From Mesaphorura yosii (taxonomy: Eukaryota > Arthropoda > Collembola > Poduromorpha > Tullbergiidae), in NCBI GenBank assembly GCA_009869945.1, contig WIXG01000072.1, forward strand, positions 124,001-188,000: a DNA stretch of 64,000 nucleotides. The letters are read 5' to 3'. The notes beneath the pieces are model-generated. The model did not search any database. It had not been told where the DNA came from and worked only from the letters and a program-made list of their open reading frames with translations. This document shows, piece after piece, positions 5,568 through 23,439 of the stretch; positions within the stretch are counted from its first letter, which is position 1; every line of letters starts with the position of its first letter. Made by a program: the position numbers and the translations under genes.

Positions 5568-8217
5568 ATGTCCAGCTACAAGGAAAAGGGCTTTGACTCG
5601 GTGTTCTATTACGTTGGAGGTCATGGTCGCTATCAGTGGCAGTTGCTCGGCGTTGTCAGCCTCCAGGTAAAATCAAGTTCTAGCCGAGCAGCAGGAATTT
5701 AAATTAAGACATTTTTCACAACGATGGAAAAGTACTGAAATAACACATTCTGATATTTCAGATGATGTTATTGACTTTTCATCATCTTGGTTTCGTCTTT
5801 CTTGGCGCAGTTCCAGACCATTGGTGCTACAATGAGGGTCTTGTAGATGCGGGATGGACTCCGGAAGAAATTCGCAACTTTTCCTCTCCCCTCATCTCGT
5901 AAGTGCTTGTGCGGCAGTGCGCCTGCTCTCGAGCCATTGCATTGCAAACCCTTGATTGCGTAGCAACGTTCTGCTTTGTTCTAGTACTTACTCGGATATG
6001 GTTGCATTTGATAAATTTTGGTCTTGATTTAGGGAGCCTGGAGAGGCTCCGCGATGGAGTAATTGTGAATACTTTGACTTTGACTACGACTACTTGAACC
6101 AAACGAAAGAGAGTTTCGAAGACGCGACCAAGCTTCGCGAAAAGTTCAACAGGGAGATTAGTCCCAAGAAGCAATGCCACAAATGGTTCTTCGATAAATC
6201 CATTTACGAGTCCACGACCGTTTCGCAAGTAAGTTTCCATTATGTGGGTAATGCCACAAGTTCATGACTCTATGACTCTTTCTTAACCGCAGTTCAATCT
6301 CGTCTGTGAGTACCGTCCACTCGTGGCCACGATTCAGTCCACGTATATGGGCGGAATCCTTTGCGGCTCTTTGATTTTGGCTACTTTGTCCGACAAGTAA
6401 GGCAGAAGCAGACAAAAGACGAACCAAGAGAATGGGCTAATTAGAATGACTAATTTTGGACTCATTCCCTACAGAATATTCGGGAGGCGCAAAGTCACGT
6501 TGTTCTCAATTTGCCTCGTCATCTTGAGTGGAATCGGAGCGTCTTTTGCACCAAACTACTTCGTATTTGTGGCACTGAGATTCTTTCTCGCGTTTGGAGT
6601 GTCCGGCTGCTATCAAAACTGTTACGTATTACGTAAGTCGGGCGGAAGGTATGAAGCTTCTTGGAGTAGAATGTATGTTTTCTTTCAGTGATCGAATATT
6701 CTGATGCCAAATCTCGAACTATGAGCGGAATCTTTGAACAACTGCCGTTCGCAGTCGGTTACATGCTCATTCCCCTGTTCGCATACTTTCTGAGGGCCTG
6801 GTTCAACTTGCAGTTGGCTTTCGCACTGTCTGCTACTTTACTCTTATCCTATATATGGTAATTGCATGTACAACATCCCAATAATGTGCTGACTGCAGTT
6901 TGGTGTCAGTTGTCAAATTTTTACTAACATTTACATTTAGGATCCTTCCCGAGTCAGCCCGCTGGCTCGCCTCGAAAGGACGAACGGAAGAGGCGTTCAA
7001 AATTCTCGACAAAGTGGCTGAGACGAACGGAAAGCCGCGACTGGACAGGGCAACCGTCGAGAAGATTCTAGAGAGCTGTGAGGATAAAGAATTAAGCCGT
7101 TTCCAGGCCTCCAGCTTCGTCGAGCTTATGAAGGCGGCGCTCAAGAATTTCTGGCACCTCGTGAAGACGCCCAAGCTGCGATCGAGGAGTTTGGCGCTTT
7201 GGAGCCTCTTCTTTCTGGTAACCACAGTGTACTACGGACTCTCGTTTGGCTCCGTTCGCCTGTCAGAGAATCCGTTCATTGTCGTGTTTTTGGGGCAAGT
7301 TGAGAAATTTCATACTTGATCGTAAACGTCTTCGTAAATGAAATGATTTTTTTTGCAGTGGTCTTCTGGAAGTACCCGCATACACAGTCATCGTGATATT
7401 TATCAAGAAATTTGGACGCAAACCCGTAATAATCACCACGTTCGCACTGACTGGCTCAGTCCTAATCGCACTGGCGTTCACTCCGGCCGGTACAATTTCA
7501 TTTCGCTATAAAGATCTTGGCGCAATCATATGCCTAGCTTATTCTTATTCTGAAATTGTTAATAGAAATGCACTCACTTCAAATACTTTTTGCATTGGCC
7601 GGCAAACTGTTCATCTCTTCCGCGTTCGCAGTGGTTTATTTACTCGGTAAATAGTAACTTGAAGTTTAAAGTTTGGTTGCAAATAGTTATTTTATCATTA
7701 TCGATTCCTTTTCTGTGACCTTGGTTTTACAGGTGCTGAATTGTATCCCACTGCAATGAGGACTACGGGTAGGTTGTAGACATAAGCAAATATAATAATG
7801 AGAGTAGTAATATTCTGCTTCGATGGTTAAAGGTCTTGGTGCTGCTGTTATAATTGGAAGGTGAGTCGCCTCCTATGAACTTTTAAAGCAACAATCCTTG
7901 TGATGCGATTTTGATGTCATCGACTATCTTCTTTTCAGGTTTGGGTCCATGACTGCCCCTTACTTAGTTGACATTATGGTAATGACTTCGAGCAAAACCT
8001 GGCTAGAGTACCAGCTTGTGCTAAACTCACTGACCTTTGCCCTTTTGTGATCGGATAGGGAACGTACGGATCCGGCATCACCCTGCCCATCAGCCTGTTT
8101 GCTGCTGGTTCCTTTGTCGCTGCCGGAGTTGCCTTTACAATTCCGGAGACAAAATCAAGCGAGTTGCCTGACAATGTGCAAGACGTTGAGAGTGAGCCGA
8201 CTGAAGAAAGACTCTAA
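5568..8217 (+). CDS. SLC22-family organic ion transporter (MFS)
   Basis: Twelve-TM plasma-membrane transporter of organic cations, anions or carnitine-like solutes; the substrate cannot be read from the sequence. Thirteen exons: 5568-5666, 5762-5898, 6033-6228, 6293-6396, 6475-6632, 6689-6857, 6941-7294, 7359-7489, 7566-7646, 7733-7768, 7833-7860, 7939-7978, 8059-8217; total 1692 nt, 563 aa. Family hallmarks: N-terminal FDSVFYYVGGHGRYQ; a large Cys-containing extracellular loop after TM1; FNLVCEYRPLVATIQS; the MFS signature DKIFGRRKV; PESARWLASKGR in the central loop; GAELYPTAMRTTG before TM11. The start is the first ATG in frame with the family N-terminus. Intron 7295-7358 must be GC-AG to keep the frame (VVFLGGLLEVPAY). 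Three consecutive exons are only 36, 28 and 40 nt. Confidence 0.9.
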
Positions 8218-9472: not shown

Positions 9473-12400
9473 ATGGCGAGACTGAAGCAATGCCTGTGGT
9501 TCCTAGTTTCTTTAAGTGCGCTCGTGCACAGTCAAATGATTGACCAATCACAGCCATCAATTCCCGACAACGAAGATGTGGAAATGATACGTAAGAACCA
9601 TTCATTTTACTTATTAGAATAAAGGTAGGATTCATTGCGGTGTTAACGTGAATGGGTATCAACTCGCCGAAGTTCAGTTTCAACTTCTCATTGAATTTAT
9701 TTGTGAAGGACGAAAATGTCAGCTTCCGTCATTCCGTGCGGTTTTTGTTTGATGCAGCTGTTGTAAAAACAGCGAGCATCGAAACTGTTCTGTGGCCCAC
9801 TTGCTTCACCAGACACAACAGTGCCCGCAAAGATTGAGGACACTGGAAGCGTTTTTGCCAGATTTAATCGGTCTAGGCAGGCTTTATTGTTATCTCCGTT
9901 CCGATTTCGTTCGCCAAGAATGAACAATCGATTGTTTTATTTGCGCATGCTAATTTGTCATGTGTGAGAAGGCAACACCCAATGCGAGCGACTCTCCTTT
10001 ATTGACTCAGGCTTACTCTGCACTTATCTAACCATACCAGAGATTATGAAAACAGGTATTGAGGCCAATTTTCGTGTGAATTCGAAGCGTTGTCATGAAT
10101 GTTCCATTTTGAGTCATCATTCGATGACGAGACATATTTGTCGTACCCTATCTTATCGTTTTCTCTGCAGAGCAAAAGCAAATAATCTCATTGCATGGGC
10201 CATGTAAAAATTGGGTTACGTTCAATTTGAATACAAATCGTTTGCTAATGAAATGGTTCGGCTTGGCCCGGTTTACCATCTACGAACTGCTTCTCACAGC
10301 CTTCTTGACTTAAGATTACTCTTAACTAATGACCTTGTAATTCTGTATCAGCTGTAGATCCCGGTGATCCGTGGACTTCACGCATCGCTCCTCTCGACCC
10401 GAAGCAGGTTTCTGGAAGGCAGCAAACCTACTACGAAATCTCTGCTGACAGGCTGCAGTTAATCCGATCCGAGCTCCTGTACCCATTTTACGACCAGGGT
10501 GCGTATAGCATTACAGACTGTCCGGGTGAATCAGAACAATTGTAGAAAAATAATGCGTAACTTATACTCAGGTGGTAACGAAAATATCGGCGACTTCCAG
10601 AAGCACATTCGAGACAACTCGCCACAAGTGAACAAAAATCTGAAGTTTCTTCTGCCGTTCTTTGGATTCGGATACAATTATACATGGGTAAGTGAAGTGT
10701 CTGAGTAAGCAGCACTGGCCAGTTATAATTCATCCTTTGAGTTTCACTTCTTGACTTCTTCTCTCAGGTATCAATGCATGGCTACTTGGCCTTCAGCGAT
10801 GGCCCGACAATTGCACAGAATTACCCTCTGAAATTTCCCCTGGAAGATTATCCAAAGCATTCTGATCCTTCGTTCATTGGTCCTTTCTATTCTAAGTGCA
10901 GATTCGCCGAATTAGTAGGAGATGAATTTGATAAGAGGCGAAGTGGAGTGTACTGGAGGTAACATACATATTCAAGTATTCATTGGAGAGATTCGTACTT
11001 CATTCGATTAAATTTGCCGTACAGAATGGAACAGGATTTGCCAGCTCGCGTGGATCAGTTCGGAGTCGAATTACGTGAGAGACTCAAGTGGGACGTTCGT
11101 GAAGGAATTGTGGGAGCCGAGTGGTTCGAGCCAAGACACGCCATCATTGTCACCTGGAAAAATGTTACCTTCGCTGGTGGTACTGTCCATGCCGTAAAGA
11201 GGGTATGCGCTAATACAGCATTGTCCTTGAAGACATTTCACATTGGATATCACACCTTTGATTTTCTTCTTGCTTAGACCAACACCTTCCAGCTGGTTCT
11301 TGCAACCGACGAAACGAGAACGTACGCCATCTTCAATTACAAGCATTTGGGGTGGATGTCGCACACGGAAGCTGGCGGATCGTCCGAGGATGGCAGCGGT
11401 GGTACTCCGGCTTTTGTAAGTCATGATACAAAAATATAGAACTCACTTGTGAGTCAATCTTTAACGTTATATCTTAATTGTAGATTGGATTTAATGCTGG
11501 CAATGGTACACGTGCGTTTGAGTACAAACCGTATTCGCAGACGACGAAGCTTCCCAACATCATGAACAGCGGTTATGTCAACAACTTTCCTGGGAGACAC
11601 ATTTTCCGAGTTGATGAGAAGATTCTTCCTGGTCAATGCATTCCTGAGCTTTGTAAGTGCCATAAAGAAAAGAAGCTTCCTCTTTGCTTGCTCGGTCGTT
11701 AAATTGTATTTTCTACTAACTTGCAGACGACATGAGTGCGCATTTGCAGCAACTGACTTTTGCCCCCGAAAGTGGGCATATGCTTGGAGGCACAATCGTT
11801 AACGTTACTGGACCCTGCTTCAAACCCAACCAGAAGATTTTGTGCAGGTACGAACAATAAATTCTTTGCGATAGACAATTGTAGCACATGGTGCTCACAT
11901 TGTGAATGCTTACAGATTCAATACGGTTCAAGTGCAAGGCTACTACATCGGTCCAAATCGCGCCTCATGCGTCATGCCCCCGATTTACGCGACCGGCTAC
12001 ATTGATATTTTCGTGGAAATTGATGGATCCAGCGATCTTCATTTCAAGGGAAAATTTTTGGTAGAAACTCCCTTTCAGGCGCCAGAGTTGGTGAAGGTGG
12101 ACGAGGCGGTGACGGAAATGGACCCTAAAACAATTAAAATAGAGTGGGATTATCACAATCTGACCATGGATAGAAACGCAATGGTATCCATTACGCTGTA
12201 CGGGTACAAAGAAAGCACCATCACACCTCAGCTAATCTTCATCGACACGATCGTCGTACGTACATTTTAGCAATTTTTGTCCATCGGCATACACTTGATA
12301 CTGGTTGAACTTTGTCATTAATATTCTAAATAGGCGGGAACACCGAACAACGGTGAATACTCGTTTTCCCCGCAAACGTTCCACAGAAAGAAGACTCCAT

Positions 12401-15400
12401 GGGCCAAAGATGTTGAGATTGGCCTGATCACAGTCAATATCACGGATTCAGTCCAAGTTCTCGGATCTTCGTTTGCTCCGTAAGTTCATTCCTCGATGAA
12501 GAGGTGTGCCTCTTGTTACTTCGCGTACGACAAAGTCGATTTATCTTCTGCGCAGGGTGTTGTGGAGCAGACCGATTCCGCTGGCGTGGTATATGTGGCC
12601 GCAATGGGAGAGCAAACGGGGACGATGGACTGAAAAACTATGTGAGAATTGGATTGTGCGGGATCGATTGCTCAAGAATTTCGCAAAAGACGTAAGTCGA
12701 CGAGCGCACGCACGTGGCTTCTTGCAACCGTTGCATTGAAATGACATTTTCAATTTGCAGCTGCCAATTTGTCCTTGTAACTTGGAACAAGCGTTAGCAG
12801 ACAAAGGGCGTTTCCTGCCTGATCAAAATTGCGATAAAGATGGAAAAGTAGGCCAATGTTATCTTCACGTGGGTGCGAAACATTGCGTTCGATCAGCAAT
12901 GCCAACGTAAAGAGCATACTTTTGAGTGTTGTGTGTCGTTATGCGTCCAGATGAGATTAATGAATGCCAATGTCACCTTGACTTAGGTTGTCCGGTGCTG
13001 GCCAGCAGTGTTGCTACGATATGTACGGGTACCTGATGATGACAGCTGATCAAAAGTGGGGCGGTCGTCCTAACCGAGCTCATGACTTGGGGCATCTGCC
13101 ATGGAATGAGGCCAACAAGGTAATTCTTTCATGCTAAGTACTTGAAACTAAGTAATGTGAGTATTCCAGTATTTTCTCCTGGTTTTCAGGTCCCGTCTTT
13201 ATCACATTACTTGCACGATGTGGCTCCGTTCTTCCCTTGCTGCAAGTGGAACCACGAACACACTTGGTGGTGCATGACGATGAGGTTCGAGCGACGAGCT
13301 TCCCAGAACTGTGTTGGGTACCAGCCCCCGGGAGTCGGTAAGTTAGAAAGATGCTGGGCGCCCCGTCAATTATATCAAAAGTCAAATTCGATTATATTAA
13401 CGAAGCGAATTTTGGTTTGAATAGCCGCGGTGTTTGGTGATCCTCACATTTACACCTTTGATGGAAACCAATACACGTTCAATGGCAAAGGAGAGTTCGT
13501 TTTGGTTCGAACACAAACCGATCGCAGCAGACTTGACATTCAAGGACGATTCGAACAGATTCCAAACAACTATTATGGAGAGGTGAAGGCTACCGTGCTG
13601 ACGGCAGTTGCCGCAAAAGACAATCAATCTTCCACCGTCGAAATTCGGCTGAGACCACGAGATGCTCAATGGCGGTACAAGCTGGACGTATTTGTTGACC
13701 AACACCGCATTTTCTTCGATCGTTATCCACAAAAGATTCAAGCATTCTCTGGAGTGACTGTTTACACTCCAACGGCCATTCAAAACCAGTCTCATGTCGT
13801 CGCCATGTTTGAATCTGGAGCAGGCGTTGAAGTAATTGAAAATATGGGACACTTGACTTGCCGAGTGTATCTCCCAATGACCTTCCTCGTAAGTAACTCC
13901 AAATCAAGTCTCGGCACCCAACTTTGTTGTGTCATGGGCTTACACCTTTTGATTTACTATTAGAATCAAACGAGAGGACTATTTGGCAACTGGAGTGGAA
14001 TCATGGACGACGACTTCATGCTGCCAGACGGATCCATGGGACCCATGTCAAATATAAACAACTTGGACGCAATGCACCGACAGTTTGGAGTCCATTGTAA
14101 GTTCACAACAAAGGCTTTAATAGTGTTTGGCAGTTGCTTTAATTCGCCACATCAATTTTAGGGGCCTTGGATGCGAAAGAGACGATGGACAAAGGCGTTT
14201 CGCTATTCTACCACGAGAACGGAAAACCCGGAACACAGTACGCTGACAGCGTCTTTCTTCCAGAATTCCGCACAACCCTTCATGACATCATTCCTCTCAA
14301 TGTGTAAGCCTTCGATGAGTATTTACTTGCGACTTGTTCGAATCTTACCCATTATACATAATATCTATTCCCTTGTCGTACGTAGAACCCTGAAACCGGA
14401 AGAAGTAGAAGAATATTGTGGCGAATCGTTCCCTTGCAAATATGACTATGCGGTGACGTTAAGTCGCGAGTTTGCTCATTGGTCCAAGTACTACGAACAC
14501 CATTTGGCGAGTCTGAAAGAAAGCGGCCTGAAGCCAAGTAAGACACATAAAACCGTGACCTTAATAGCCTTTCAATGGATATGAGACATAATTTCGCCGT
14601 TCTACAACGCAGTTGTATCCTGTGGGGCGCTGATGACTCCGATTCATGGAAGGAAGAGTACTTTCAAGTACACTCCAGGAACAGAGGTATTGTTCGATTG
14701 CGACGATAACTTTGTGTTGGTGGGAGAACGCCGGCGAGTGTGCGAGTCCAACGGTGTGTGGAATCTACCTTCATCAGGCACGGGAGACCGCAGAACAGAG
14801 TCTGAATGGTTCAACTGGGCGCCCTCAAAGGGTACCCGTTGTATAGGTGAGCTTTTTTGCATTCTGCTCAAAACGCGCTCTCGTTCATTCATTCAACAAC
14901 CATGCCACCATCCTGCAAAAATTCCATAGCGTTAACTAGTCTACGCCTTAAAAATTGGATTTCTGCTCAAGCGAATTTGTGAAGTTATAGCATGGGGTTC
15001 GCATGGTTGTCTTGACTGAACGATGCGTGCTCGGAGCTTTCAGCCGTTCTAGCCGTTCATTGGCAGCGAGCTTCTTTCTGATGGCAAATTAGAGTGAATG
15101 TATTTAGTTCTGACCTTGCTCGTTTGCGATGCTTTCTATCATACCTACTAGCTGTACATTTTAAAACAATACGTATAGAGAGTGCAAGATTCAAAATTAT
15201 GTAATACAGAGGAAGGTGAGCACCAGTACGTCTCGTCCGCCATCACCGCCGGAATAATCATGGCCGTTCTCATTCCAATTGCCGTGATTGCCTTCTGTAT
15301 ATTCGTCGCCTGCCGAAGATTTGTTCGCTCCGAAGAAGAACCGTCGTACTACAAAGATCAAAAGCGAAGGGGCGAGCTGCAAGGCTTCGTGGCGACGGAA

Positions 15401-15976
15401 AATGAAGGAAATGATAAAGATGGGCCTCAAATGACAATTCATAAAGCTGTTGAGCACGAAAATGACAAGATTCCGAACGAAGAGGCAGGGAATGTCCAAG
15501 CAAGCCCGAAAATCTCGCCTCTAATCCCCATCTTGACGGAGTCTCCAAAATCCCCAAGATCCAGAACAGCAGGAAATGGGAACAAGGCCGGTTCTGGGGA
15601 CGATGAAGGGTCCGTCCTCTCATCTGTCGACTCACCGACATCTGTGTCTTCACCCGAACCAGGAACCCCGTCAAGGATTGTGCCCGTCTCAGTTGAACTC
15701 GCCCCGGCTCCTCTTCGATCTCCACTGACTTACGATGGCGAGTATTTCACCGGTGAACCCCTTCCAAACCGACCTGACGTTCAATTTCCAGAAGAAATCC
15801 GTGATCCAGACGAGTATCCGGCTCCACAGACACCCCTGCATACCTTTCCCGAGCGCGTGCCCGTAGCCACTGGGCAATTAAACAGGGCTGCTGCACCTCC
15901 TCCTCCACCCACCAGCCCGCCTCCTTCTGTTTCTGTCCCAGCTGAGCCCTACGTCTCCACATCGTTGAATGTTTAA
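9473..15976 (+). CDS. mesh: Mesh, smooth septate junction membrane protein (long-tail isoform)
   Basis: Junction protein of endodermal epithelia in arthropods; known to act with Snakeskin and Tsp2A. Exons: 9473-9590, 10352-10498, 10572-10687, 10768-10958, 11025-11202, 11278-11415, 11484-11652, 11727-11847, 11916-12255, 12334-12479, 12556-12691, 12761-12906, 12987-13119, 13190-13337, 13425-13888, 13964-14096, 14162-14303, 14386-14537, 14613-14846, 15210-15976; 4119 nt, 1372 aa. The signal peptide ends near SALVHSQ. Then come a NIDO domain (about 10570-11420), an Ig/TIG-like region (11727-12255), a Cys-rich AMOP domain (12556-13337), a VWD domain beginning [15 protein letters not shown] (13425-14303), a Sushi domain (14613-14846) and a TM segment. 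This isoform's tail of about 215 residues is Pro/Ser-rich and ends SLNV. Intron 1 (9591-10351, 761 bp) holds nothing I recognise. The Sushi domain carries an extra stretch of about 20 residues before its last Cys. Confidence 0.88.
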
Positions 15977-16231
15977 GGACCACTTTTTTAACAAATCAGT
16001 AGAATTTAGATTCATGTTTGTTCAAGCAGATTCAATTTTTTATTTAAGACATTTTGTAGTTAACTGTCAATGAGCAGTTTATATTACTATTAATATGTAA
16101 GCAACATAGGTGGGTAGATTTAATAATTTTATGGCTCTATGCCGGTTTCGAGGTATGAAGTCTTAGCAGCGGGCAGAAGCTCGTTATATGGACTCTAATT
16201 TTGATACTGTCAGATTATAGATTAGTTTGAT

Positions 16232-16237
16232 AATAAA
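16232..16237 (+). terminator. Internal polyadenylation signal AATAAA (mesh long-tail isoform)
   Basis: AATAAA 256 nt after the stop codon of the first terminal exon and before the second terminal exon set. This placement fits alternative polyadenylation coupled to terminal-exon choice. Confidence 0.5.
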
Positions 16238-16304
16238 AAATAACTTCCCAGAACTCAGAACTTAGCGATAAACTTAGGGCTTTATAATTTTACTTCTTCT
16301 GCAG

Positions 16305-16663
16305 AGGAGGGAGAACACCAGTACGTTTCTAGCGCGAAGACTGCCGGGATCGTCTTGGGAATCATGCTTCCACTTCTCATCATCGCCTTCTTTGCTTTCC
16401 GATTTTACCAGTCGCGAAAGAATCAGCACGTCGTCAACGCTGCTAACCGTCCAACGTAAGTCCAATAACGTCCAATTTCTGGCCAGATAACCAGATCCTA
16501 TTGACTGTATTGACCTACTGTTGTGAGAAACTGCATGACGGATTGATTGAACTACAGGAATCGAAGGGATATTGAAGTAACGAAGACAATAATTCCGCAC
16601 TCGACAGAAATCAGGAGCGAGAAAGAGTCACCAAGCACAAGAATGAAAGAAACTTCCACCTAA
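16305..16663 (+). CDS. mesh: Mesh alternative terminal exons (short-tail isoform)
   Basis: A second membrane-anchor cassette for mesh: exons 16305-16455 and 16558-16663. The first starts [15 protein letters not shown], nearly the same as [15 protein letters not shown] at 15210, has the same phase-1 acceptor, and encodes a different TM segment (GIVLGIMLPLLIIAFFAF) followed by a basic tail. The second adds NRRDIEVTKT to the end METSTYPE region, finishing KETST. Spliced directly after exon 14613-14846 it gives 3609 nt, 1202 aa, with an intracellular tail of about 60 residues instead of about 215. Homology of the first 12 residues shows tandem exon duplication. Mutually exclusive use is inferred because each cassette carries its own stop and poly(A) signal. 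Confidence 0.75.
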
Positions 16664-16842
16664 TATATTTATGCCCTGTAAATTTTAATATTAGTGTACT
16701 CAGCATGAAAATGTTTCTGAGAAAGAATTAATTTAAATGAAAAATTACATGTGGCATATTGAATATTTTCTTCAGCTGTGTAAAAGCCCATTACTTTGTA
16801 TAAACCCTCACTTTTAGAAAGCTTCAGTTTTTACCATGTAGA

Positions 16843-16848
16843 AATAAA
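16843..16848 (+). terminator. Polyadenylation signal AATAAA (mesh short-tail isoform)
   Basis: AATAAA 180 nt after the stop codon of the distal terminal exon. Confidence 0.55.
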
Positions 16849-18013
16849 ATCAGACCATTTCTTTTGTTTTTGGGTCAACATTGTGAGCGCACTTCATATT
16901 TATTAAGCTTCCAGCATTTATTGGACGACCAGGATAGCACTTGCGCCATGCCAAACGAGGTATTGCGGCATGTGTTAACATTTGCATGACATGAATGACT
17001 TCAGCTGGAATAAATAGCTAGAAACACATTTTTTACAACTGACATAAAGTTATTTATTTATTTTTCGAAATTGGTCTATTTCACAACAAAGAATTTTTTT
17101 TAAAATGACGCTTATGTAACATGTCATTGTCATAGGACATTTACACAATTAAAACGAAAAACCTCCAATTCCTATATATTGATAGTTACACACCGAAACC
17201 TCGGACCCGACCCCCACTATACAGGGAACCTTCTGAAAGACTTTCGTCCCATGTTGGGGGGAGGCGTCAGATCAATTCGATTGCTTGACAGCGCTGTCAA
17301 TCAGACAACATTAGTTACAGCGACAGAGGGGTCGGCGAAGGTGAAGATTAACTATCTTATCTCCTCTCCTTAATACTGATCAGAATTGAGTGAAGTTCGG
17401 AAGGTTGAATTCCCAGACCACATCTCTTGCCTGTTACATTTCCTTTGCCTTACAACACAATTTTAGAAGTTATCAAACACGATGATGGAAGTACCTTCCT
17501 TCGGTGTGTTTGAAAACTTCTAAAATTGTGTGCTGGCATATCTTCGGAAATGTGCGTGGAAAACTTTGTGCCCAAATTATCTGGAAATCCAACACACCGA
17601 TTGAAGGAGATTGTTTAGGGCAAGGTGGTTTTGTATTGGAATTTACAATATTAAATTTAACTATGAGCCGGTGTCACCAAAACTAGGTGACTCAAAAACA
17701 AATTTCAGTACAAGACGAGTTCTTAATCCTTTGAGAATTCTTTTTTCTTTTATTTTTAGCATAACCGATACCAAGGGTATAGAGCTGGGATTACGAATGT
17801 GAAATTTGCTCCTGCCCATCTTTACTAGTTTTCGAGATTTTTGCGCGCAAACGACTGTCGCCAATTAAGAGATAGATTTCTAATCCACCCGACAGGGACG
17901 TTAAAAGGAACCCCTCGGAATGACATGTACACAGAAAAGAACATCCCCCCCCACGAAAGTTGCCGAGGTCTCGGTGTGTTGGTGGTGTTGTGGTGTAGGG
18001 GTCAAATATTCGA
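16849..18013. other. Region between the convergent mesh and THOC2 3' ends
   Basis: No coding exon recognised. It contains the 3' UTR of THOC2 (minus strand) and the hairpin at 17455-17531. An open frame on the plus strand at 17841-18377 runs antisense to the THOC2 C-terminal exon and is best explained as its shadow. Confidence 0.55.
17455..17531. repeat. Near-perfect inverted repeat (hairpin)
   Basis: Arms 17455-17480 and 17506-17531 are reverse complements at 25 of 26 positions, separated by a 25-nt loop. It is not explained by any gene. It could be a small foldback element or a hairpin transcript; no transposase remnant or flanking duplication is evident. Confidence 0.75.
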
Positions 18014-21000
18014 CTATTTGTACGAGCGAGTACGTGATCTTACTTCAACTTTTTTTCTCGATTTTCTTGAAGGACTTGCGTCGTCCCTTGGACTCCTGTC
18101 GACCCGCACTTTCTTGGAGTCGGGTCCTCCAGGTCTTTGTGAATCTTGGGAGTCTGGCGCTCTTGATTTACGTACCAAAGGGGACTTGTCCCCCTTCTCG
18201 GCAGACTTAGGATATTTTCCATCAGCCAAACGTGTTGCTTTTACTTCCTCTTGGCTTCCTGATTTTGATTCTGGAGACGACTTTGCAGATTTCACTTTCC
18301 GGACATTCCGGAGTTCTGTGACTCGATCCACCTTACTATCGGAATTAGGTGCTTTTTTAATTTTCATTGGAATCTGAAGATCAGCTATATTCAGTTTTGG
18401 TTCAGACCCCACTGATGACACTTTCTTCTTCTGCTCTGGCGTTTTTTCGATTTTCTCTTGCTTCACTAATTTAGAGAAAAGGTCCTTCACATCCTCATGA
18501 TTAGCTTTCTGCTCAGGCGTTTTGGGAGCTTTATTCTCTGCAGAAGCCTTTCTTTCCTTTTCTGCTCCAGGATGCTTAATATGAAAATCTTCCTCCGGTA
18601 CAATGGTTCCCCATCTCGCTTTTAGTTGGCCTATGTAACTCGTTCCCAATGCGAAAAGATCTTGGCGCTTATCCTTCTGTTCAGCTCGCACCTGATATTC
18701 CAATCTCAAATGAGTATGATAATTAATAGGAAACTAAAATTCTTCTTCGCAGCCAACTTACCCTTTCCACCCATCTCTCGACCGCGTTGGCAAGGTTAAG
18801 AACTCGTGGGTAGTGAGGAAGTATGCGTTTCAGAACGATGAGTGAATTACGAATTTGAGTGAAATCCTTCGACTCCAGACACACAATGACCGACTAAATA
18901 TCAGAAACATGCAGCTCAATGTAGTGAATTGTAAATCATTTTCAACAAACAAAGTATCTTACCTTGGTGATTTTATAATGCCATTTATGACACACGTGTC
19001 GATAGTTTTCATATTCAACGTGGTCACTATTGTCAGTGGTGGATGAATAGGCAGCGCGAAATTTGGTTATAAATCCTGGAAAGCTGGCGCATTCCTGAAA
19101 CAATTCAAGCATTGAATTCTTTCTCTAAGCTAAAGCTAATGAGGAGCATTCTATTCTCTCACTCACTTTATCAAATACTGCCTTATCACTGTGCCATTTC
19201 ATCACCGTTCCCAGAAGAGAGCAGAGAAATCTCCCGTATCGATTCGCTTCGTTTTCGGTACAGGAGGTAACGGTGTAAATTATATCGCAAAATATCTGCA
19301 ATTGACGAAACGATTTGGGGTCATGAAATTAAATGGAAAGCCAACTAGCCAATGCAATGCATTCCCAATTTCTTACCCTGTCATAGCAGATTAAGGTAGA
19401 AAAGTTAGGCGTTGATAATGAATGTATAATATTCACAAAATGAGCACAATACAGTGCGTCAGGTGCCGTGAAAATACATCTTGGGAAAAGGCACAACTGA
19501 AGGAAAGCCGTCACGGCCTCATTTTTTGCGGACTTGGCCGTTCTAGAAGCAAACCAGGAGTCTTTCTCCTGATGATAACAGAAAAACAAACTCAATTAAT
19601 AATTACAATAAACAATACAAGCTTTTATAACTTGAGAAACTGAAAAACTGACGTGCACTCCTACCTTATTCAGCTTCGCCATTACCCGGTCCACGTGTTC
19701 CTTCTGACGTTTCTTTTCTTCTTGGAGTTTCTCAATTAATACGTTACACCTTTCCTGCTCTCTTTTCCGCTTGCTCGAAGTTAAATCTTTGTTATCAGCA
19801 GCAGAGTTGGACATGAGTTTGATTCGATTGATTTGACTGGTATAAGCGTCATTTGGAACAATCAAGTCGTACAACGTTAACGACCAAAATGTTACGTAAA
19901 ATTGAGGAGAAATATCTTCCCAGGCTTTCGCAGGTAGTTGGTTTCTCATTACATCTGCAATCGGGTCTAATACGATGTTGGCAGCTTCGGAATACTTCTC
20001 TTGTCGCTCTATCGTGCTCATTTTATGTGTCTTGTCGCCACCTCTCTTTAGCTCATCGTATTTCACCTATAATACAAGAGAACGGTATGGAGATGCTGAG
20101 AAAATCTCTCTTTTCTGGACAGCTACACGGGCTACTTACCTGAATAGCGTTTGCGAAAAGAGGCCTCCACAGGAAATATGCGACGTCGGACGCAACATGA
20201 TATTCTTCGACAAGGTCTTTCAAGGGGGGGATTTTCTTTGCGTAGTCATCCAGGGTTCCGGACACTGCCAGAAAACTACCAAACTGCACCAGCGTGTCCT
20301 GGCACTAAGCCACGTGCAATAACATTGACAAATTAGACACTTTTATTAATAACTAAATATTAGCGAGACTTCATTGAATATTCCTTCTTCCTGAAATTTC
20401 TTTCTTTACCTGATCATATAATTTACCAACAAGCTTCGTATGAAGATCGGCAGCTTCATTGAAGATTATACAGTCTCGCTGCTGTGCCATTAATATACAC
20501 AGTGAAACGGCCAAGTCGTTCACCGAGCTCGCGTCCCGTAGTCTGCTCGCCGATTTCTTCGCGGTCCGAACTTGACCGAAATATCCCGCCTTCAAATATA
20601 GAGCTATTAAATCATAGTCATATTAAATAAATGTGTACCTTACTTCACCACGCAGTAATTCTCCTCCACCCATAGCGTCCAACTGCTCCGTTGTCATTTC
20701 TTCAGCTGCTTCGATGCCTGTCATCTTCTGAACTATTTCTTTCAGAAGAAGGAGGTCTAAGCTCTGATTTGCTTTCAACTGATTCGAGATATATTGCAAA
20801 AGCGGGACTAATTCTATTGGGTATTTCTTGCACATGGCTCCAGCGAAAGCAGCTAGGCTCTGCAGCCACGGCGCGATGGTGGATCCGTCATGCTTTGTTC
20901 TCGCTCTATTAGGTAGTAGCATCTAGATCAACAGACAGACGATTTGCAGACCTACAGAACAGGAAAACCGATCAATGCTTGGATAAAGCTTAATTCAACT

Positions 21001-23439
21001 TACGACTGAAAACCCTTCCTTTGTAGACGGGCTGGGAGATAAGGCCTCAAGTAGACAATGACCCAGTACATCGTAACTTAATGGAGTCAAAAACCTGAGC
21101 GCATCGATCACTGGCATGATCAAGTTGTCAAAAAGCTGAATCTGAGAAAGTAACTGCAAAGAAAGAATGAATCGAATCATCGAATGTGGTTATCGCTTCA
21201 CACAAGCAAAATTAACCGAATCATTACGTAGTCAAACACAACTGCTGGCATTGTATGTGACAATTTGCCCAAATGGCGTCCCATCTGCTTCACATTTTCT
21301 TTTGATATTCGGCGCATCAAGTGCTTTACTCGCTTCACTAAATCTACTCTTCGTCGTAATAGCGTTGGATGCAGCAACATAATAGTCTCGCCTTTCCACT
21401 CATAATATAGCCGATATCTGCAACCGAGGGAAAATCAAACCGTTGCCCTTGCCCCAGCGCGTAAATATAATCCACAATGTGGGCCGTACCTGTACAAGTA
21501 TGGATACAGTTTCAAAACCTCCCATATCTCTTCGGATATGGCCCCGTTTGACTCTAAGAAGCAGAGAGCCGGAAGAATAACTTCGTCCATGAGCGAAAGG
21601 TGGTCGTGATACAATTCGTTTCCCTCCGGCTGAGAAACACAACAAAATGAACTCATCATGCAGTCTCGTCTCATGGCCTTGCTTTTATCAAAAGAAAGTT
21701 GTACTCTTACCGTGCACATGTAATGCTTCATCAAGCGCAAGAGCTTGTACAGAAATTCAGGGTTAAAGTGGGCGTATGGACCCACAGCAAGAAACAAGTG
21801 GATGATTTCTTTCATATTTGCGTAAGATTCTAAGGGCTTGGGAGCTTTTGAATTTGTTTTGAAGATCTCTGGCATTACGGGCTCAGTTTCCACAAACGCG
21901 ATTCTAAAAAGAAGCAGTTTCAAAATGTAATCGCAGGGTGGTAATTCAAAATCTGATTTTACCTCGAGTATAAGGGATGAATCAAGTATTCCAGAGCGTC
22001 CATTAGACGAAGAGCAATTCTTTTATTGCTCACGAGCGCAACTTCTGGAACTTTTGTCATGAGAACTTCTAGCATATCCCAAGCCCCCACATGAATCAGA
22101 GCCTCACACAAGCAGAATTTGTGATTTTCGAAGTACTGTAGAAAACATGCATTGTTTTAGCGCATGGAGATGAACAGACAGAATTTGCTTACCAAGTCTT
22201 CTGGCGGAGCCAATTCTTCAGGCTCTTCGATGTTTTCTTTGTTTATTGTGATGACCATAGATTTGCGAGCATATTCTCTTGCTTCAGCCAGCTGTCTTGA
22301 CCATTGTCTTCTTATAGTTTGATCATCCGGTGACAGCTAGAATGCACCAAGCAAATTCGACGCGTTGTAATTCGATGCCAAGCCATTTTACTGGTATCGT
22401 CAGGATCATTTTTTTACCCATTCATATATTTGGTCAAACTTAATGATACGGTGTTGAAGTAGAAATGCAATTACGACGAACAAGTTGTATGAGTAGTTAT
22501 CAGGGACTTGAACTCGGGCTCCCAATAATTCACAGATAGTTCCAGCAGGGGGATTCAATTTTCTTATTAATGTTATAAAATAGTCACAGTTCGGCTGACA
22601 CTCGAACGCCTGAAGAAGTATGTCAAGAACTCGGTTTGGATCCAGGTTGAACCTCCCTGCAATAAAATAAAAATTTATCCATGCTCCGAAACTTCCAACC
22701 TCTCACTTTCATCGCTCAGCATGGATTTTACTTACCTATCAGGCATTGAATGTGCTTCATAACGAGAATTCGATTGCTGGGCTGATCCCTTCGGCATAAT
22801 AATGCGATGAGCTTTGAATATCCTTCGGATTCTTCTCGCAGGAGGTTGAATTTTTGTTGCTTAAAGCTGCAATTGAAACACGTGTTAAATACCATCGCAT
22901 CTGTCATCAGTCTCATTACATATGAATGATGCATCACTTACAATAATTTTGTTTTCAGCCGAATAAATTTCATATTGTATACTTTCGGATTTCCGACGAC
23001 AGCTCCCGACCCGAAAAGGGTGTCTTGGTCAATACGCTCGTGGAGTGTGTACCTCAGCACGATGCTAAGTGATTTCATAATTTGCGAAAAAATTTCACGA
23101 GCTCCGTCGTTATCGGGGCACGACTCCAGAAGGTACACGTTGTGCATAGCCAACATATCCGTAAGAAGAGAACCTGCCTTTGGTGTCTTGCTAGCCAATT
23201 TCTTTAAGATGTTGATGGTTTCGTCGATCTCGATCTCCTTCTGGCAGCAAGCATCAAGCAAGTCATAAATATCATTCTTAAATTCGTCCTTTTGTCCTGA
23301 AATCGTAGAGAAAGATAATCAGCAATTATGCATATCAACGAAGGCAAGTCACACAGACGCCGACAAAGAACTTACCATTCAAAAGTTTCTCGGAAAGTCT
23401 GCTTGCGCTGAAGCTAATCGTCTTCTCGGTGTCACTCAT
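18014..23439 (-). CDS. thoc2: THO complex subunit 2
   Basis: Scaffold of the nuclear THO/TREX complex, which couples transcription to mRNP packaging and export. Nineteen exons read right to left: 23376-23439, 22942-23296, 22736-22866, 22418-22656, 22193-22336, 21963-22135, 21711-21903, 21490-21629, 21228-21417, 21004-21153, 20644-20922, 20410-20589, 20140-20304, 19665-20066, 19377-19568, 19167-19295, 18963-19094, 18762-18893, 18014-18691; 4068 nt, 1355 aa. Conserved stretches match THOC2: [87 protein letters not shown] followed by [12 protein letters not shown]. The C-terminal exon ends in a Lys/Ser/Pro-rich tail finishing RSRTRSYK, the charged tail typical of the family. Vertebrate THOC2 is about 1.6k aa, so this one is somewhat shorter. 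The start ATG at 23439 opens a short N-terminal exon. Confidence 0.93.

Follow-up and report, generated by a model that had tools for sequence, protein, structure and literature searches.

Mesh is a gut-junction gene of arthropods, its protein being characterised by a place at smooth septate junctions together with Ssk and Tsp2A. In Drosophila it has three isoforms that differ in their cytoplasmic C-termini, as reported in the accessible part of PMC4964579, and the names 'Protein mesh isoform X1' and 'x2' occur in tables among the accessible parts of PMC10419257 and PMC7379565. Alternative membrane anchors have been described for another arthropod adhesion protein, Dscam-hv (Dscam1), whose exon 17 consists of two mutually exclusive transmembrane exons (PMC3364881, in its accessible sections), and the accessible portion of PMC9741552 puts substitutions between tandem duplicated exons at 236 events in human, with an enriched C-terminal share of 77, and finds such events in 154 Drosophila genes. 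Here we describe a predicted mesh gene on the plus strand of a 64,000-nucleotide stretch from the collembolan Mesaphorura yosii (contig WIXG01000072.1, positions 124,001 to 188,000; this whole stretch is the window, and coordinates count from its first letter). The gene very probably ends in two alternative terminal cassettes, A and B, which go back to an old tandem duplication and would give either Mesh-A or Mesh-B.

Compared with these systems, as far as the accessible parts of the sources describe them, the locus shares with fly mesh the same architecture and a variable cytoplasmic C-terminus. With Dscam-hv it has in common that two alternative exons would supply alternative transmembrane segments to an arthropod adhesion protein; the Dscam-hv exons, however, lie inside the transcript, with endodomain exons after them (of which 19 and 23 are optional), whereas in mesh the tail and the 3' end would change along with the helix. 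The class collected in PMC9741552 resembles our case in that homologous tandem terminal exons are involved, one able to replace the other, and the homology of A and B lies within the BLAST E limit of 0.01 used there, beside other kinds of evidence, for tandem duplicated exons; the events of that class were drawn from annotated gene sets, whereas the mesh cassettes are known here from DNA alone. Neither mesh nor CG31004 occurs in the accessible main text of PMC9741552 (gene list excluded), the accessible parts of PMC8277862, PMC9545526, PMC6209374 and PMC9019602 hold nothing on Mesh endings, and among the open-licence papers listed for mesh isoforms, septate junctions and tandem exons, no title or abstract opening mentions that the terminal exons of mesh are duplicated. 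To our minds, the kind of event and the tail variation of the gene are thus already known, and what appears to be new is that the endings are tandem homologues, membrane helix included, with selection on both stalks. We regard the mesh case as fairly ordinary in kind and as a useful test case.

The 19 common exons (9473-14846) contain no stop and remain open into cassette A as well as into cassette B. The last of them, exon 19 (14613-14846), encodes the Sushi domain and ends in phase 1 at CGTTGTATAG/GTGAGC (donor G/GTGAGC, score 8.6); the acceptors at 15209/15210 and 16304/16305 both yield a G+AG codon after 14846, which puts them in the same phase and makes the same upstream partner possible. 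Cassette A follows an intron of 363 bases (14847-15209) and is a single terminal coding exon (15210-15976, stop at 15974-15976) that comprises stalk, membrane helix and tail; a possible end of its transcript is marked by an AATAAA at 16232-16237. Cassette B starts with an exon (16305-16455) for the stalk, a different membrane helix and the beginning of a basic tail, continues after an intron (16456-16557, GTAAGT...CTACAG) with its least certain part, a second exon (16558-16663) that would encode the rest of the basic tail up to the end ETST and the stop at 16661-16663, and is followed by an AATAAA at 16843-16848, the possible end of transcript B, with another at 17009. The predicted products are 1372 (Mesh-A) and 1202 (Mesh-B) amino acids long. 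The original prediction had placed the two exon starts at 15210 and 16305, behind a shared phase-1 acceptor and with a common opening, and had assigned each cassette its own stop and a downstream AATAAA (16232, 16843), all of which sequence and translation bear out. Its description of two terminal cassettes likewise stands for both of them, albeit the wording left out that B is made of two exons, and its proposal that the ectodomain would stay constant while membrane helix and cytoplasmic tail would change is supported as well.

Judged from their sequences, A and B are tandem homologues, that is, duplicated and diverged terminal exons. They open with 11 identical residues, and their local protein score of 115 compares with maxima of 54 in 2000 full and 60 in 2000 block-preserving shuffles; a chance likeness between two membrane helices is ruled out by the latter (0/2000) along with the synonymous pattern described below. 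When cassette A was used as query in tblastn across the genome, where the best candidates only were scored, two matches were obtained at E <= 0.001, namely A itself and B (9.3e-6), and query B at E <= 1 retrieved its own two exons and A only (the A-B comparison also giving 6.2e-7). Among the best candidates scored there are hence no further copies of the cassette at these thresholds (E <= 0.001 for A, E <= 1 for B). Two DNA-pattern matches were rejected, since one (C962) sits in an esterase-like frame, as judged by reading with no family search, and the other (C154) in a short frame that bears no resemblance by eye. Similarity between A and B fades beyond the membrane helix: among 300 shuffles each, the observed value was reached 83 and 225 times for the introns, 169 times for the tails, 184 times for the 3' untranslated regions (UTRs) and never for the exon starts. 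In flanking introns, tails and 3' UTRs, then, A and B are no more alike than shuffled sequences, so the duplication is not a recent copy, and near-saturated synonymous sites in codons 1-16 together with the dissimilar flanks rule out a recent segmental copy or gene conversion. As for an assembly artefact or haplotype duplication, nothing was found in its favour, and with a 2051-base cassette region that is single-copy in the genome, diverged cassette DNA and dissimilar flanks we give it next to no probability. Shuffles, tblastn and the synonymous pattern therefore agree with the original prediction of duplicated and diverged terminal exons.

What became of the two copies after duplication can be read from the stalk. 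Over codons 1-16, A and B differ at 13 nucleotides (1, 2 and 10 at the three codon positions, respectively) and in one residue, while neutral placement of 13 changes gave as few residue changes in none of 20,000 trials (mean 8.1, minimum 3), the simulation being a simple one with one change per site, weighted transitions and A as the start sequence. Nei-Gojobori proportions for the same codons are 0.83 synonymous and 0.11 nonsynonymous; the B stalk retains 15 of 16 residues, for 10 of which the codon carries a synonymous change, and across codons 1-32 the DNA differs in 11 of the 20 codons whose residue is identical. Since residues were kept while nucleotides differ in codons 1-16, both stalks have been maintained as protein during synonymous divergence. 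This pattern supports selection at the amino-acid level on both stalk copies, which goes beyond what the original prediction had claimed, and from it we infer translation of B in this frame over much of its history. It also bears on the idea that B is never translated and that cassette A is always kept, with an intron in its 3' UTR joining on exon B. Donor-like sites suitable for such an intron are present between the stop of A and exon B, at 16109 (7.7) and 16152 (7.8); conservation of B at the residue level, and in the very frame that the 14846 donor dictates, speaks against it, and we consider it highly improbable.

Several observations weigh against two endings that are both coding, and most of them concern B. 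Codons 17-32, which lie in the membrane helix, show no constraint of the stalk kind (13,976 of 20,000 neutral trials fell at or below the observed residue changes), although the residues stay mostly hydrophobic despite this neutral-like rate of change. Codon-usage scores, for which the common exons served as training set, hardly favour B (0.09 per codon in frame, 0.03 in the best other frame): the first exon of B scores 0.20 vs 0.22 in one reverse frame, and its second exon, at -0.07, is lower than two other frames. When the 49 codons of the B tail were shuffled, 468 of 5000 arrangements were also open and 438 of 5000 were equally or more coding-like. B exon 2 has an acceptor with a score of just 0.0, surpassed by 17 of the 18 common acceptors, with all splice scores coming from a generic matrix that was not trained on this genome. 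Finally, at least one AATAAA arose in 0.30 (15977-16304) and 0.27 (16664-16900) of mononucleotide shuffles, so on their own these signals are weak evidence. Weak codon usage in B and the poor acceptor of its second exon are what one would look for if B were a decaying, unspliced relic of the duplication and Mesh-A the sole protein. A relic, however, is expected to lose just those features that B has kept, i.e. stalk residues amid synonymous change, a strong first acceptor (8.2, level with the best of the 18 common acceptors) and a good donor on exon 1 (8.1, with five of the 18 common donors higher), and so we hold this view to be very improbable.

If both endings are used, the two proteins would differ strongly on the cytoplasmic side. 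Tail A, for which the original prediction gave about 215 residues ending in SLNV, comes to 217 with that same C-terminus; it is acidic (isoelectric point, pI, of 4.7) and Pro-rich with proline runs, and contains 36 prolines, 10 Ser/Thr-Pro and six tyrosines. The SLNV terminus fits the class II pattern of PDZ ligands, making it a putative one. Tail B has 52 residues, is basic (pI 10.1, ten Lys/Arg) and ends in ETST. Should the B intron be retained, an in-frame TAA directly after NRPT would leave a tail of about 18 residues; on the predicted frames tail B is thus short with or without the splice, its precise end being uncertain. PxxP occurs nine times in cassette A and not at all in cassette B, and neither cassette contains YxxPhi, PPxY or [DE]xxxL[LI] motifs. 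Best 19-residue hydropathy values are 3.11 for A and 2.67 for B. Codon usage weakly favours A (0.16 per codon, none of the five remaining frames exceeding 0.00), no solved structure resembles cassette A at E <= 1, and a Pfam search with cassette B alone returned no family.

The model we favour, two alternative terminal cassettes, would work as follows. An old tandem duplication would have copied the exon that encodes the stalk, the membrane helix and the first part of the tail. Splicing of 14846 to 15210 and 3' end formation near 16232 would then produce Mesh-A with its long acidic tail, while skipping of A, splicing of 14846 to 16305 and 3' end formation near 16843 would produce Mesh-B with the other helix and a short basic tail; because each cassette has its own stop, the endings would be mutually exclusive, no dedicated mechanism being needed for this. 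The contest would be one between the proximal A, with its middling acceptor (3.3, exceeded by nine of the 18 common acceptors, which range from -2.3 to 8.2) and its own poly(A) site, and the distal B with a very strong acceptor. As the AATAAA of A stands 67 bases 5' of exon B, 3' end formation and recognition of the B acceptor would use neighbouring sequence, and this arrangement suggests that A, together with its poly(A) site, competes kinetically with the stronger splice to the distal exon. The same adhesive ectodomain would thereby be coupled to cytoplasmic partners in Mesh-A and, for the most part, uncoupled from them in Mesh-B. We infer the existence of both RNAs, a regulated choice between them and a difference in partners, and both endings may actually be used, perhaps by tissue or, as the original prediction suggested, by junction type.

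A further element that may bear on this choice is a strong 5' splice-site-like sequence six nucleotides inside exon A (15213-15221, AAG/GTGAGC). Its score of 10.3 at 15215 is above that of the 14846 donor (8.6) and of the 18 common mesh donors (2.1-9.3), and is reached or exceeded by eight of the 3627 GT on the plus strand of the window, 15215 included. It is possible that the site acts as a U1 decoy that represses A, or else as the phase-1 donor of a 6-nucleotide microexon (15210-15215) which, joined to 16305, keeps the frame open and would provide Mesh-B with two additional Glu. Strength and open frame are in favour of such a role. On the other hand, the corresponding position of cassette B lacks a GT, EEGEH can be encoded in 64 synonymous ways of which four yield a donor of at least 8.6, which leaves coding chance as a possible origin of the site, and 6-nucleotide exons are rarely defined without help, which counts against the microexon in particular. 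We therefore see either role as unlikely, if worth keeping in mind. A fuller scenario, in which the anciently duplicated anchor cassette, preserved in both copies by selection, switches Mesh between tail-coupled and nearly tail-less forms and the U1 site in exon A silences A or makes a microexon and hence a third isoform, strikes us as doubtful and rather improbable.

The gene model underlying the two endings was built by chaining open segments through frame-keeping GT-AG introns, with links ranked by splice-site score, and its 18 exons ahead of exon 19 (9473-14537, plus strand, ATG at 9473) form one open frame with Pfam matches. Exons 1 to 6 lie at 9473-9590, 10352-10498, 10572-10687, 10768-10958, 11025-11202 and 11278-11415, exons 7 to 12 at 11484-11652, 11727-11847, 11916-12255, 12334-12479, 12556-12691 and 12761-12906, and exons 13 to 18 at 12987-13119, 13190-13337, 13425-13888, 13964-14096, 14162-14303 and 14386-14537. 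Exon 2 has two candidates of nearly equal score for each of its bounds, 10352 and 10358 for the start and 10498 and 10525 for the end, and the 18 common introns measure 65-87 bases, except for the first (761). A signal peptide recognised by eye at the N-terminus is followed by NIDO (126-341), TIG (365-431), AMOP (581-718), VWD (744-921) and Sushi (1051-1092) and, after Sushi, by a hydrophobic stretch of membrane-helix strength; the TIG match (20.3 bits) is slightly below the cut-off of 20.9, and C8-3_MUC4 (C8-3-like) and Ig_F54D1_6 match below threshold. By this domain architecture, with both the set and the order of domains in agreement, the predicted gene is mesh, as the original prediction had named it. 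The Mesh domain list in the accessible part of PMC4964579 agrees with the NIDO-TIG-AMOP-VWD-Sushi series found here. Searches with parts of the ectodomain gave six pattern matches in a viral and 22 in a prokaryote collection, none of them confirmed, in collections where relatives are hardly to be expected.

AMOP matches occur at three loci of this genome, i.e. the mesh locus and two others. One of these (C678, L009:274-3069) holds an open frame of 931 amino acids with NIDO, AMOP, VWD, C8-3 and Sushi and, by eye, no membrane helix, so it is possibly an intron-poor, secreted Mesh-like paralogue; the second further AMOP locus is C910 (L010). The genome also has 66 Chitin_bind_4 matches, as would suit an arthropod, whereas COX1 gave no match in a search that recovered 8 of 14 controls, and Col_cuticle_N gave none in one that did not recover its controls. 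Within the window, mesh is met tail to tail by a minus-strand THOC2-like gene (16848-22022, with Tho2 at 19599-20066 and THOC2_N at 21438-22022), whose end may be represented by a minus-strand frame of 239 amino acids at 18014-18733. Upstream of mesh, positions 339-2982 contain the end of an adhesion-type gene that matches laminin G and, below threshold, EGF, where by eye a hydrophobic stretch and then a long tail come after the laminin G/EGF region. A sugar-transporter family match (PF00083) at 6885-7316 marks a gene between this laminin G gene and mesh.

For the biology of Mesh, the stalk conserved in both A and B points to a functional segment adjoining the membrane. Placing one ectodomain either on a long, phosphorylatable and possibly PDZ-binding tail or on a short basic one would be a direct way to part adhesion from signalling.

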